Assembly: GCA_014526335.1 (NCBI GenBank)
Contig: JACTAT010000122.1
Location: 649,553 to 713,552 of the forward strand
Source: Chrysaora quinquecirrha
Lineage: Eukaryota > Cnidaria > Scyphozoa > Semaeostomeae > Pelagiidae
Length of the DNA: 64,000 nucleotides
Direction of reading: 5' to 3'
Shown here: positions 40,475 through 48,466 of the stretch, in pieces
How positions within the stretch are numbered: the first letter of the stretch is position 1
How the letters are laid out: each line of letters starts with the position of its first letter
The notes under the pieces: model-generated
The model's input: the letters and a program-made list of their open reading frames with translations, nothing else
Told to the model about the DNA's origin: nothing
The model's database searches: none
Translations under genes and position numbers: made by a program

Positions 40475-40694
40475 TTTATTTGTCAAAACATTTGTAAAAT
40501 TAATGTAAAATTAAGTACCTTAGAGGTTGCATATGGTAGGCCTATTGTATATATGTATATCAAATGGATAGCTTGAATATTTTAATAAGAAATCAATATC
40601 ACGCCCATTCTTCATTAGGTGGGTAGATCCACAATTTTTCATTTTATGCAAACCAAAAGCACCTAAGCATATTCAAATTGGCTATCTTTAAAAC

Positions 40695-40802
40695 ACGGAA
40701 TACGGAATGACGGAATGACGGAATACGGAATGACGGAATACGGAATGACGGAATGGCGGAATACGGAATGCCGGAATACGGAATGACGGAATGACGGAAT
40801 GA
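40695..40802. repeat. Subterminal CGGAATACGGAATGA minisatellite, left outer arm
   Basis: Alternating CGGAATA and CGGAATGA units directly behind the left terminus. The inverse array lies at 48254-48421. Confidence 0.85.
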
Positions 40803-42129
40803 TGAAAAGGTGTTAAGTAATAACAATAATAACAATAATAATAATAATAAATGCTAAACTTCTTACTTACAGTTGGCAAAGAAACCACTAATAGCTCTTA
40901 CTCTCAAGAGAGTGGGCTAATAAAAACCAACTTATATACATATCCTAATACAGCAAAACCATAATATTTACAATGAACATCATAATTGACAATTGAATAC
41001 AAATGAAATATATATGCACAACCATTGAAAATTTTTATTGAGTTCTATTGTTAAAATGATCACTTTATTTCATATTACTTTGATTTCACGTAATTTAGAG
41101 CGTTTTTAGTTCGTTTTGAAGGTCGAATTGTAAAGTAAACTCTGTTTAAAACATTTCATAGGTATAAACTGGAGATTCTATTGTATTTTCTATTAACATT
41201 TCTCTTGTCTTTTTCTATTTCTGTAACGTTCTGATACTATTATTGTCATTACTGGTTGTTGACATGTTGATTAAAACTACATTTACGTTAGCGCGAGCTA
41301 GGAATGCTACACAATGAAGTGAGCATGGTTTTGCTTGGTTTCCAAAGTTTTTGAAATAGATAAAAACAAGGTATGAATAGCTCAATTAGATTAAATATCA
41401 CAAATTGCACAAGACTTCTGTAAGCTTTGAAATGAAAAAGAATTTTTCGCTATATCAATTAGTGAATGCAATTTCACCATTTTATAGATGGCTATCTTTA
41501 AAACCCGGAACGAGGAATCGGAATCGGAACCGGAATCGGAATCGGAATGACTATGTTAAAAACCCGGAACGAGGAATCGGAATCGGGACGGCAATCGGAA
41601 TCGTCATCGATAAATGTAATTAATTTATTACGTTGATTTGTAGGCTTTCTGAAAGATCTTAAGTAGGGACAAATGACAAAGTTGAACCAGAAAATAGATT
41701 GCCCAGATGTTTGTGTAATAGAAATTGATTATTTTCATCACAGATTTTTAAAAAAATATCCGAAAGCAAAGCATGTCTTCCCTCCTCAATCGACTCAACT
41801 CAATTTTAATTAGGAGCTTTTGATTTCTGATAAACGAAGGTAACAGAAATCAACGAAAGAAAACAGCATTGGCAATAGGAATTCAGAAAAAAGATGCAAA
41901 ACGTCCAGAAATGTATTAGAAACAAAACTTCCACAAAAAAATATTTTTTTTGAATAACTTTCCTAAGCAATATAGACAACAAAACAGTTGAGAATATCTA
42001 ACTAGATAATATAGACAGCAAAACAAGCTTTTAGTATTGAGAGTAATAAAAAAATGATATATGCATTGATTGTTAATTTCAAGATTGAAATGGCAACCAG
42101 CCAAATTCACGACTGAGCGCATCAAGATG

Positions 42130-42300
42130 CTCTCTGCAAAAGAGGGGAAGTTATTCTTTAGCTACCTTCAGATCGTTGACGGAGAAGTTTCCATATCGTG
42201 CAAGTATACATGCAAGTTTCATGTGAAAGTGCAAATTTTGTGGATAATCCGTGCAGGTTTTTTGTCCTGTTACCCTGTCTCTGTACTCTGTCTCTTGGCC
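42130..42300 (-). pseudogene. Mirror-image fragment of the Cys/His-rich relic frame
   Basis: Minus-strand copy of the C-terminal half of the frame at 45371-45790, starting at EYRDRVTGQ and ending at NDLKVAKE, after which the frame is lost. The upstream codons are unrelated sequence, marking the point where arm homology breaks (about 42296). Confidence 0.6.
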
Positions 42301-42685
42301 AATACTGCCAAGAAACTTCACATTCTCCAAAGAAAATTCTGGAAGATTGTACGTAGGTCTGTGTTTAGGCTTCGGGAGAGAATTTCCAGCATACATCGCC
42401 TTTCTCGACAGGGCACTGAGTGAGGGGCGAACAACATCTGCTCAGTTTTCCCAATGCACTCTTTGTTTAAAGTTATGGGCGGGCAAAAGGCAGATTACAA
42501 TCTTAATAATTATATCATCTTGTTTCTTTCTTTGTTTGCTCATTGACATTAATTGCATTCTTGACTGAGCATGCATCTGGAGAGGTTATGTAACATTATT
42601 TCATATTGCTCATCTTCAGAACATTTTAACCGTTTCCTAATTGAAATTTCTAATGACTTGACATTTGGGCTTCAGAAACGAGGGC

Positions 42686-42775
42686 TATCTCTAAAAAGGG
42701 GAACGGGGAATGGGGGAACGGGGAACGGGGGAACTGGGGAATCTCTAAAAAGGGGAACAAGAAAATGGCACATCC
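42686..42775. repeat. Third terminal-motif copy: GGCTATCTCTAAAAAGGGG plus GGGGAACGGGG minisatellite
   Basis: A lone inward-facing terminus of the same design as the outer and middle ends, with the motif GGCTATCTCTAAAAA followed by GGGGAACGGGGAATGGGGG units. No partner end was found on the right side, so it may be the left end of an inner element whose right end was lost. Confidence 0.6.
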
Positions 42776-43125
42776 TACCAACAAATCGTTTACGCCATTC
42801 AAAAGAGCTTTATTGAAAACACGAAAAATATGTAACTTTGAAACTTTTTCTCTGCTTTGCTTAGAAATAACACGGCTTCAAAACCAATTTTCTCAAAATC
42901 TCTAAAAGGGGGAACATAAAGGCCGCATATGATAGGAAAAATCTTAACCCACCAGAGGTTAGGGCTTCTGTTCATTAGCTAATATCTGTTGTAAAAGTGT
43001 AGGTAAAATCTAAGAATAGCGATAAAACACGAAATATAAAAATCTCTAAAAGGGGGAATCACTTTTCCAAAATCTCGAAAAAGGGGAACACTTTTTCAAA
43101 ATCTCTAAAAGGGGGAACGTAAAAA
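42740..43125. repeat. Spaced AATCTCTAAAAGGGGGAA motifs, left inner arm
   Basis: Five spaced copies of AATCTCTAAAAGGGGGAA or a close variant (about 42740, 42895, 43038, 43070 and 43105). Inverse copies lie in the right inner arm (about 44905, 44935, 44965 and 45105). They resemble the terminal motif and may be transposase-binding sites (inference). Confidence 0.6.
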
Positions 43126-43609
43126 CTACGCAACGTAGAGCACTGAAAAATGTATCATTTGAGAGCTTTTTGGCAGCACGTTTCAAATATTTCAAAAAGT
43201 GTTGAATTTACAGTAAACTAAGTGGAATAAATCGCTTATAAAACCGATGAAATAAACATTCCGTGTTATCAATGAGATATAATGAAAAATACTTCTGACA
43301 TTCACAGCTAATGGAAACCAATTAGCGTATTAAGACCTGTCTTCGCTACAGACAAGCATCAAATGACAGTAATTTTGTATTATGTCTGGGCATGGATGAA
43401 CTCTTTCAGCACTGTGGAATTTAGGGATGTTTTCGATAATTGAACGTTTCAGTTGCTCCTCGGGATCACTTTTACTCCTGCGTGAAGAACAGACACTCTA
43501 ATCTATGTGAAAATATCTCTTATATATTTTGAAATATTGTCCCAAGTTTTATCTTGTGTTTTTGTCGTTAGTATTATGTTGAAATATCCCTTTGCTGTAA
43601 CGTAACAGG

Positions 43610-46478: not shown

Positions 46479-46539
46479 TGGTAAAATTGCATTCACTAAT
46501 TGATATAGCGAACAAAACCTAAAAATTCTTTTTCATTTC

Positions 46540-46600
46540 TTTTTTTTTTTTTTTTTTAAACAAAGGTATTAGGCCAAGAGGGCCTCTAACCTATTAACCT
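46540..46600 (-). mobile_element. 61-bp retroposed tail (LINE/SINE 3' end) with poly(A)
   Basis: A run of 18 T followed by a short unique part containing GGCCAAGAGGGCCTC, flanked by duplicated ATTTC (46535-46539, 46601-46605). The matching position in the left arm (near 41435) is uninterrupted, so it inserted after the arms existed. Confidence 0.75.
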
Positions 46601-47122
46601 ATTTCAAAGCTTACAGAAGTCTTGTGCAATTTGTGATATTTAATCTAATTGAGCTATTCATACCTTGTTTTTATCTATTTCAAAACTTTGGAAACCAAAC
46701 CAAACCATGCTCGCTTCATTGTGTAGCATTCCTAGCTCGCGCTAACGTAAATGTAGTTTTAATCAACATGTCAACAACCAGTAATGACAATAATAGTATC
46801 AGAACGTTACAGAAATAGAAAAAGACAAGAGAAATGTTAATAGAAAATACAATAGAATCTCCAGTTTATACCTATGAAATGTTTTAAACAGAGTTTACTT
46901 TACAATTCGACCTTCAAAACGAACTAAAAACGCTCTAAATTACGTGAAATCAAAGTAATATGAAATAAAGTGATCATTTTAACAATAGAACTCAATAAAA
47001 ATTTTCAATGGTTGTGCATATATATTTCATTTGTATTCAATTGTCAATTATGATGTTCATTGTAAATATTATGGTTTTGCTGTATTAGGATATGTATATA
47101 AGTTGGTTTTTATTAGCCCACT

Positions 47123-48135
47123 CGTACTTACTAAAACGCGGAACCACCCAAAACGACCCAAAACCAGCCAAAACGACCCAAATCCAGCCAGAACCACCCA
47201 AAACGACCCATAATTGGATCAAAACGACCCAAAACCACCAAAACTAGCCAAAAAATGTCATTTTCACTTATTAAGGGGCAGAAAGCCCCTCAAAATCCCC
47301 AATTTTCTTCAAAACATCATCACTACGTTATAAATTTGTCTTTCCTCTTGGGGCGAGAAACGTGAACAATGCGCTTTGTTAGCTATTGATTTTCGGAATA
47401 GCTGACGAATCTTTTGTGAATCGCTCTCAGGGGCCTATTCAATCACCTGCAGCTTCTCAAGCCTATCTTGTATGTTCCATCAAATTTTTTTAATGTACGA
47501 TTATCGCACGATCGTGAGATTTTCTTATCTCATGATTCGAGCGAGGGGCATTTCACTCCAGTCCTACAGACACGTACACGTACAGCCATTGTTAAGATTT
47601 CATGGTTTTGATGAAAAACTTCTTGGAAATATTTCCGTTTAAACGGGAATTAAAGATCACTACTCGTGACTTCTAACACGATCGTGCAATAATCGTGTGA
47701 TTTTTGTGATAGTACACTCTTTTTTAAAAGAAACTCGTTTATAAGCAACTCTGAGATCAATAGTGACCCAATATGATTAGAAACTCGCAGGTCTCAACGT
47801 GCGGTCGCGTTTTATCTTAAGCAAGTTGATGCTTAGACAATAGACACAATAATGCTTTTTTGAACAAAAAGGCCTCTCTGACTCAATTATGACAAGGAAA
47901 GTCCCAAGGCAAAAGAAGAATTTAAAAGAGACAATGATGTTATTTCAAAGGATATGTTGAATTTGTGGGGATTTTCAGGGATTTTCTACCCTAAAGTCAT
48001 GGATTTAAAAGTAAGTTATACTTCTTTGGGTGGTTTTGACCTGATTATGGGTCGTTTTGGGTTGTTTTGGCTCATTTTGGGTCGTTTTGGGTGGTTTTGG
48101 GTCGTTTTGGGTAGTTCCGCGTTTTAGTAAGTACG
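47123..48135. mobile_element. 1,013-bp Mutator-like non-autonomous element with 9-bp duplication TAGCCCACT
   Basis: Both ends read CGTACTTACTAAAACGCGG inward (about 22 bp identical). Exact 9-bp duplications TAGCCCACT lie at 47114-47122 and 48136-48144, and the left arm of the host palindrome shows the empty site. Subterminal arrays of AAAACGACCC / CCAAAACCAGCC units face inward from both ends. A 9-bp duplication is typical of Mutator-like elements. No transposase frame. An AGTACACTCTTTTTT block at about 47710 may be a relic of the TACACGC family. Confidence 0.88.
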
Positions 48136-48253
48136 TAGCCCACTCTCTTGAGAGTACGAGCTATTAGTGGTTTCTTTGCCAACTGTAAATAAGAAGTTTA
48201 TCATTTATTATCATTACTATTGTTATTATTATTATTACTTAACACCTTTTCAT

Positions 48254-48421
48254 CATTCCGTCATTTCCGTATTCCGTCATTCCGTATTCCGTCATTCCGT
48301 ATTCCGTCATTCCGTATTCCGTCATTCCGTATTCCGTCATTCCGTATTCCGTCATTCCGTACTCCGTCATTTTGTATTCCGTCATTCCGTATTCCGTCAT
48401 TCCGTCATTCCGTATTCCGTG
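48254..48421. repeat. Subterminal ATTCCGTATTCCGTC minisatellite, right outer arm
   Basis: Inverse of the array at 40695-40802 but longer (about 168 against 108 bases), so the two arms have changed copy number independently. Repetitive peptides read from it are artefacts. Confidence 0.85.
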
Positions 48422-48466
48422 TTTTAAAGATAGCCTATTCAAATTATTGCTGTATCTTGTTTTAGT

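Follow-up and report, generated by a model that had tools for sequence, protein, structure and literature searches.

As far as the available text of each report goes, Tm1, a Mutator/Foldback element of root-knot nematodes, is flanked by 8-10 bp target-site duplications in 45 of 53 cases (PMC3169594); the Mutator-like element (MULE) superfamily combines 8-11 bp duplications with long inverted ends, a DDE transposase and, in several members, extra open reading frames (ORFs) (PMC6446971); Tetris, a foldback of Drosophila, makes 8-10 bp duplications, its authors having found no autonomous copy (PMC4079207); and Galileo, of the P superfamily, makes 7-8 bp duplications at a GTATTAC-type target and has a P-type transposase (PMC4168063). 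Here we describe a nested palindromic block in the jellyfish Chrysaora quinquecirrha, within what we call the window, the whole 64-kb stretch analysed (C105:649553-713552, in a 328-Mb assembly of 740 contigs; C-numbers denote contigs and L-numbers, L004-L071, fetched genomic stretches). We consider it very likely that the block consists of four related non-autonomous DNA transposons, E1 to E4, nested by successive insertions, and that E1, E2 and E3 are foldback-shaped MULE derivatives, presumably mobilised in trans by the transposase of longer relatives. The Mutator/foldback class is already known, and this site is a well-preserved example with an unusually deep nest.

The targets of CMITEs are of the TTAA type, and we rejected membership in that group because the duplications here are of 9-10 bp and not TTAA. 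These coral elements are linked to piggyBac (PMC2872659). As judged from its description, Tm1 resembles the present elements in its composite inverted ends, which vary in length and in Tm1 contain a ~14-bp motif in repeated copies, in its transposase-bearing and non-autonomous groups and in one copy with a nested unrelated element; it differs in belonging to another organism group, whereas here related families are nested and the arms of E2 and of a longer relative on contig C236 include the 3' end of the transposase (PMC3169594). The elements share with MULEs the duplication length, long inverted ends, DDE-like motifs and extra ORFs, but their transposase falls below the Pfam MULE cut-off and has a C-terminal CYGC...NVHFH domain (PMC6446971). 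Tetris has comparable duplications and likewise combines foldback domains with tandem repeats inside its inverted ends, but for the present elements transposase-bearing relatives were found (PMC4079207). For Tetris, at least, no connection to a transposase-bearing relative had been available; here foldback palindromes are connected to such relatives, probably Mutator-like and with ends that match. Galileo likewise has long inverted ends taking in non-terminal sequence, but its duplications are of 7-8 bp, against 9-10 bp here, and its transposase is P-type (PMC4168063). As in plant MULEs with multiple inverted ends, there is more than one set of inverted ends per element; the inner ends described in plants lack a recognisable duplication, whereas E2 and E4 have their own (PMC3310237).

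Four nested elements in one palindromic block

The outer element, E1, spans 7756 bp (40680-48435), contains E2, E3 and E4, and has identical 19-bp inverted termini, opening with GGCTATCTTTAAAACACGG at 40680, the reverse complement of which ends at 48435. It lies between two exact copies of a 10-bp target-site duplication, TATTCAAATT (40670-40679 and 48436-48445), a sequence that occurs nowhere else in the window on either strand. An earlier sequence-only reading had reported these identical termini and exact flanking repeats, and its coordinates for E1 prove exact to the base. Inside the termini, a tandem-repeat scan detects subterminal minisatellites (left, ~15-bp unit, 40695-40802; right, 15-bp unit, 48255-48420), and this part of the arm is 93.0% identical between 40695-40919 and 48136-48360. 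The inner left arm (40910-41433, plus strand) matches the inner right arm (46601-47123, minus strand) at 99.2%, and 795 of 809 columns of the whole aligned arm are identical (98.3%); none of the arm matches of E1, E2 or E3 in the window is due to chance. The hairpin loop region at the palindrome centre (46417-46478) is found again, with unchanged sequence, in the middle of other E1 copies, and 46407-46478 is self-complementary. The right arm also holds a short SINE-like (short interspersed element) insertion at 46531-46600, recognised by eye, with a poly-T head and a GAAAT duplication.

The second element that the earlier reading had placed in the middle of E1, with its own duplication matching at eight of ten positions, is indeed there: E2 spans 4917 bp (41490-46406), carries GGCTATCTTTAAAACCCGGAA at both ends within 21-bp identical termini, and was inserted, as measured by hand, ~30 bp off the E1 palindrome centre. 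Its flanks, TTTTATAGAT on the left (41480-41489) and ATTTAGAGAT on the right (46407-46416), agree at 8 of 10 positions. Of the 20 loci retrieved with E1, 13 have the insertion site intact, a count in which L006, L007 and L013, duplicates of one another, are entered separately; the site reads ...ACCAATTTAGAGATCAGATATC... in most of the 13, with variants in L014, L016 and L019. Since other E1 copies are uninterrupted there, we can see that the right duplication of E2 has their sequence and that the left copy differs from it at two positions. Over the 20 bp left of E2 (41470-41489) there are three changes relative to the E1 consensus, a higher density than the arms show. The E2 arms (41514-42288, plus; 45581-46352, minus) are 95.9% identical.

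Inverted arms reported earlier within the inner part correspond to a third element, E3 (42683-45168), which begins with the terminus GGCTATCTCTAAAAAGGGG at 42683, lies ~100 bp from the E2 centre as measured by hand, and has arms 95.3% identical (42852-43495, plus; 44525-45168, minus). Four E2 copies (L025, L022, L023 and L037) are uninterrupted at the E3 site and continue into 188 bp absent from the window, which indicates that a deletion after the E3 insertion removed the right end of E3 together with this E2 sequence; the right target-site duplication of E3 was lost along with that end. Further short repeats occur in the E3 spacer at 43612-43895 (by eye) and 44026-44475, the latter recurring at 10971-11431 (88%) in a self-comparison of the window.

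A fourth element, E4 (47123-48135), missed by the earlier reading, sits in the E1 right arm with the terminus CGTACTTACTAAAACGCGGAAC and a 9-bp target-site duplication, TAGCCCACT, on either side (47114-47122 and 48136-48144). Its site is empty at the matching place, near 40903, in the left arm of E1 itself. At 111 bp (90% identity) its arms are short, and its terminus GTACTTACTAAAACGCGGAA has 66 sites genome-wide against none for the control. The description of elements within elements, each with its own ~10-bp duplication, thus stands for E1, E2 and E4, E3 having lost its right duplication, and the attribution of the whole to one transposon family is not supported, the nested elements having four different termini and arms. 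Their subterminal repeat units also vary: 15 bp in E1; 6, 24 and 59 bp in E2; 8/15 bp in E3; and 10/30 bp in E4. Part of the order of events can be read from sister copies in which the sites are uninterrupted. In a series of cut-and-paste insertions, E4 would have entered the E1 right arm, E2 would have landed beside the E1 centre, and E3 would have gone into the middle of E2.

Genomic copies and transposase-bearing relatives

The terminus GGCTATCTNTAAAANNSGGRA has 278 exact sites in the assembly and none when reversed, so other copies do end as the earlier reading required; 89 of these sites, with C or G in the variable position, are of E3 type or close to it, 48 are of E2 type, and the remaining ~141 are mostly of E1 type. 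Insertions in this genome include those of GGCTATCT type and of GTACTTACT type. Separate genome searches with the first 810 bp of E1 (40680-41489) and the left 807 bp of E2 (41490-42296) returned 104 and 79 alignments, counts that include the window's own and were taken among the best candidates scored, and we fetched 20 stretches for each arm. A 9- or 10-bp duplication flanks 13 of the 18 fetched copies judged two-ended, and 17 of 20 further short stretches have one at two or fewer mismatches (one best fit reading as 11 bp), whereas the same procedure succeeds on random flanks in ~1% of cases, or 2.5% for E4-type ends; among the further stretches the pairs L056/L057 and L066/L067 each look like one site duplicated. 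Among the E3-type elements compared (L053-L060), those with GGCTATCTGTAAAAGGGGG at both ends have 9-bp duplications (2/2) and the remainder, in which at least one end is GGCTATCTCTAAAA, have 10-bp duplications (6/6); L057, apparently the same site as L056, combines the two kinds of end. The length of the duplication may therefore be subfamily-specific in this type.

The elements have a foldback architecture, with long inverted arms, hundreds of base pairs long in many copies, and tandem repeats just inside short identical termini. One copy, L035, is a 4978-bp palindrome without a spacer (97.7%). That the paired arms of a copy evolve in concert is not supported: in 16 of the 18 copies compared, at least one arm is closer to an arm from another copy than to its own partner, L028 giving a tie and L035 being the exception. 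A search with joined flanks revealed no E1 allele or empty site, its hits other than the window being only 16 places that match the far right flank. Contig C346 was rejected as an empty allele: it matches 38938-40187 at 93% and has the look of a paralogue of a BTB gene.

None of the four nested elements carries a complete transposase of its own in the window, but E2 contains a truncated ORF (45215-45787, plus strand) that aligns with the C-terminal domain of the transposases in L044, L047, L050, L051 and C236 and is the C-terminal end of such a transposase, probably Mutator-like. An inverted partial copy of the same end lies in the E2 left arm (42151-42441, minus strand), recognised by eye from the shared tail EYRDRVTGQ...HFHMKLA. 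Two close relatives of the ORF were found among whole proteins of similar length, and its domain has at least 150 genome matches (150 of 250 candidates scored, several per element), among them C105:691634-691843, the E2 left-arm copy.

In L044 and L047 the CYGC...NVHFH domain ends a multi-exon protein whose exon joins are inferred. Mutator-type transposases are marked by a D...D...E signature with C..H between the second D and the E. The first exon of L044 and L047 contains DPTF, then TDGE, whose D comes 71 residues later, and then C..H; the spacing of 71 holds in two of three first-exon ORFs, the two that contain both aspartates, and C..H follows the second aspartate by ~20 residues in all three. 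The second exon has a TN.D.E..NF block (present in L044, L047, L050 and L027; the search pattern is unmatched in L051) and the terminal CYGC...NVHFH domain, and some second exons also carry a zinc-like C/C...C.H motif; the motifs of the two exons together are D-D-E-like. The first exon has 111 relatives, some of them named from Paramuricea clavata and Desmophyllum pertusum, and weak Mutator matches at E<=0.01 occur among 49 relatives (PF10551 in 4/49, PF00872 in 5/49, an IS256 model in 11/49). Profile searches of the exons and relatives revealed no other transposase superfamily, and other weak matches (YxiJ, LdpA and a transcription-regulator model in one relative) make no joint sense. We tentatively assign the transposase relatives of E1, E2 and E3 to the MULEs on the strength of duplication length, motifs and weak profile matches, as divergent and probably Mutator-like; E4 may be associated with them through its similar design and 9-bp duplication. 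The earlier suggestion of a Foldback- or Mutator-like group is accordingly favoured by both the foldback architecture and this transposase.

Transposase parts lie behind ends of all three types. A 15.1-kb element, C236:9582-24718 (L048/L049), has E1-type ends on both sides, a duplication matching at 9 of 10 positions and transposase exons; it is interrupted by a Ty3/gypsy retrotransposon and carries a protein-kinase ORF (PF00069, E 3e-21) that is a possible case of gene capture. Because the sequence that it shares with E1 is the terminal repeat region only, we regard it as a relative and not as the parent of E1. L027 has transposase exons behind an E2-type left end (56% and 42% identical to those of L047), and L050 has transposase parts behind an E3-type left end, its arm matching E3 at 89%. 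The 1.09-kb inverted ends of the C236 element extend into the last transposase exon, as the E2 arms do.

These features suggest a mechanism in which the predicted transposase of longer relatives would recognise GGCTATCT(N)TAAAA at the termini together with the repeats that follow, excise the element and reinsert it, in trans, with a 9- or 10-bp staggered cut. We propose that the palindromes arose because inverted arms grew inward, reaching, in E2 and C236, the transposase 3' end, which would then be present in both orientations; such growth over the end of the gene would turn coding elements into foldbacks. Arms that contain the end of a transposase gene would capture an intermediate stage on a possible path from coding transposon to palindrome devoid of coding sequence.

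Points against this account and rival explanations

Several results weigh against a MULE-derived nest. Among the two-ended copies, L022, L023, L031, L033 and L035 (5/18) have no duplication, L035 being the near-perfect palindrome, and none was found in three of the 20 further stretches (L062, L065 and L071). The Pfam matches of the fetched exons all fall below the curated cut-off, the best being that of the L047 first exon to PF10551 (E 0.0036, 18.1 bits against 27.6); second exons and the L027 exons match neither Mutator Pfam family, no Pfam family matches the CYGC...NVHFH domain above its cut-off, and a sequence search of PDB chains with the transposase gave none at E<0.1. For L027 and L050 no right end was found, which lowers our confidence slightly.

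The strongest competitor, which we regard as possible but distinctly less probable than nesting in place, is that the whole 7.76-kb composite moved as a unit, with E2 (and E3) already inside E1 before landing. Had nesting taken place here, the outer duplication would be expected to be the older of the two, yet it is exact (10/10) and the inner one is not (8/10). The 20 bp left of E2 contain three differences from the E1 consensus; the 524-bp inner arm has four, one of them a gap (Fisher p 0.0014), and the other 789 aligned columns of the whole arm have 11 (p 0.004), both p values being post hoc in that the comparison was picked after the data were seen. An exact outer and an imperfect inner duplication, together with these clustered changes, hint at composite movement; two mismatches in ten are few, however, and the same pattern would result from conversion between arms or from an error confined to the junction. 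No second E1 with E2 inside it occurs among the matches listed, though a cut-and-paste element need not leave one, and L007, which seemed to have an insert in common with L013 and was considered as a second composite, is a rearranged segmental duplicate. The earlier proposal that the elements target their own palindrome, inserting preferentially into their own kind and perhaps near the hairpin centre, strikes us as doubtful. In its favour, 59 paired elements spanning 150 kb hold four nested events where uniform insertion predicts 0.087, counted at strict terminus sites with an incomplete E1 list of 47 sites and one E3-like site left out, and both E2 and E3 lie close to a palindrome centre. Three of the four events, however, are in the very window that raised the question; without it one remains (P ~0.083, the expectation of 0.087 still including the window), and a five-fold regional excess of insertion would make that event ordinary (P 0.35). 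The remaining event, an E3-like element in an E2-type copy (L024), occupies a place different from the E3 site in the window, 230-350 bp off centre, and E4 is away from any centre; in the part of the report available, few coding MULEs of maize and rice were inserted in other transposons (PMC3903597). With a single nested event outside the window we do not claim self-targeting. Two other stretches, an E1-like element with a further E1 right end inside it (L004) and an E4-like stretch in an insert within E1 (L013), lack clean inner boundaries. That foldbacks of different MULE families insert near each other's hairpin centres and then move as growing multi-element composites seems to us improbable.

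Neither of two further explanations appears at all plausible. An assembly artefact, the head-to-head joining of two haplotypes or of a chimera, might be suspected from the haplotype-like duplicated stretches elsewhere in the assembly (L006/L013 and L010/L011) and from N gaps in the window; these gaps lie outside the nested block, each of E1, E2 and E4 is flanked by a duplication of its own, and elements built in the same way are found on other contigs. The differing divergence of the arms, the uninterrupted sites in other copies and the empty E4 site in the E1 left arm make such a join very unlikely. As for membership in the P superfamily, as Galileo-type foldbacks with long, internally repetitive inverted ends, the one pointer from this genome is a P-element-type transposase within an E2-family copy (L032), and we give this reading hardly any credence: that transposase belongs to a separate ~7.9-kb insertion bounded by inverted ends of its own, the place where it lies is uninterrupted in L031 and L033, and duplications of 9-10 bp differ from the 7-8 bp of P and Galileo elements. 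The insertion itself (L032 ~2388-9901, continuing in L041) has TNP-like domains and inverted ends of ~98 bp, and also holds a reverse transcriptase ORF.

Further observations

No viral contig among those scanned matched the termini, a literature search with the terminus sequence as a word returned no paper, and among the papers listed by searches for cnidarian foldbacks none describes these elements in its title or the opening of its abstract; as the search did not extend to Repbase, an earlier description may exist. In L021 (1848-6999) an E2-type left arm adjoins long minus-strand ORFs of unrecognised kind, one of them F-box-like by eye; they could belong to another large mobile element or be virus-derived, and the one ORF scanned has no Pfam match. 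Profile matches place a BTB gene and a LINE (long interspersed element) reverse transcriptase in the window, with exon-like breaks seen by eye. The right end of the window (52096-64000) is occupied by a long array of a ~197-bp satellite, its period taken from the spacing of self-matches.

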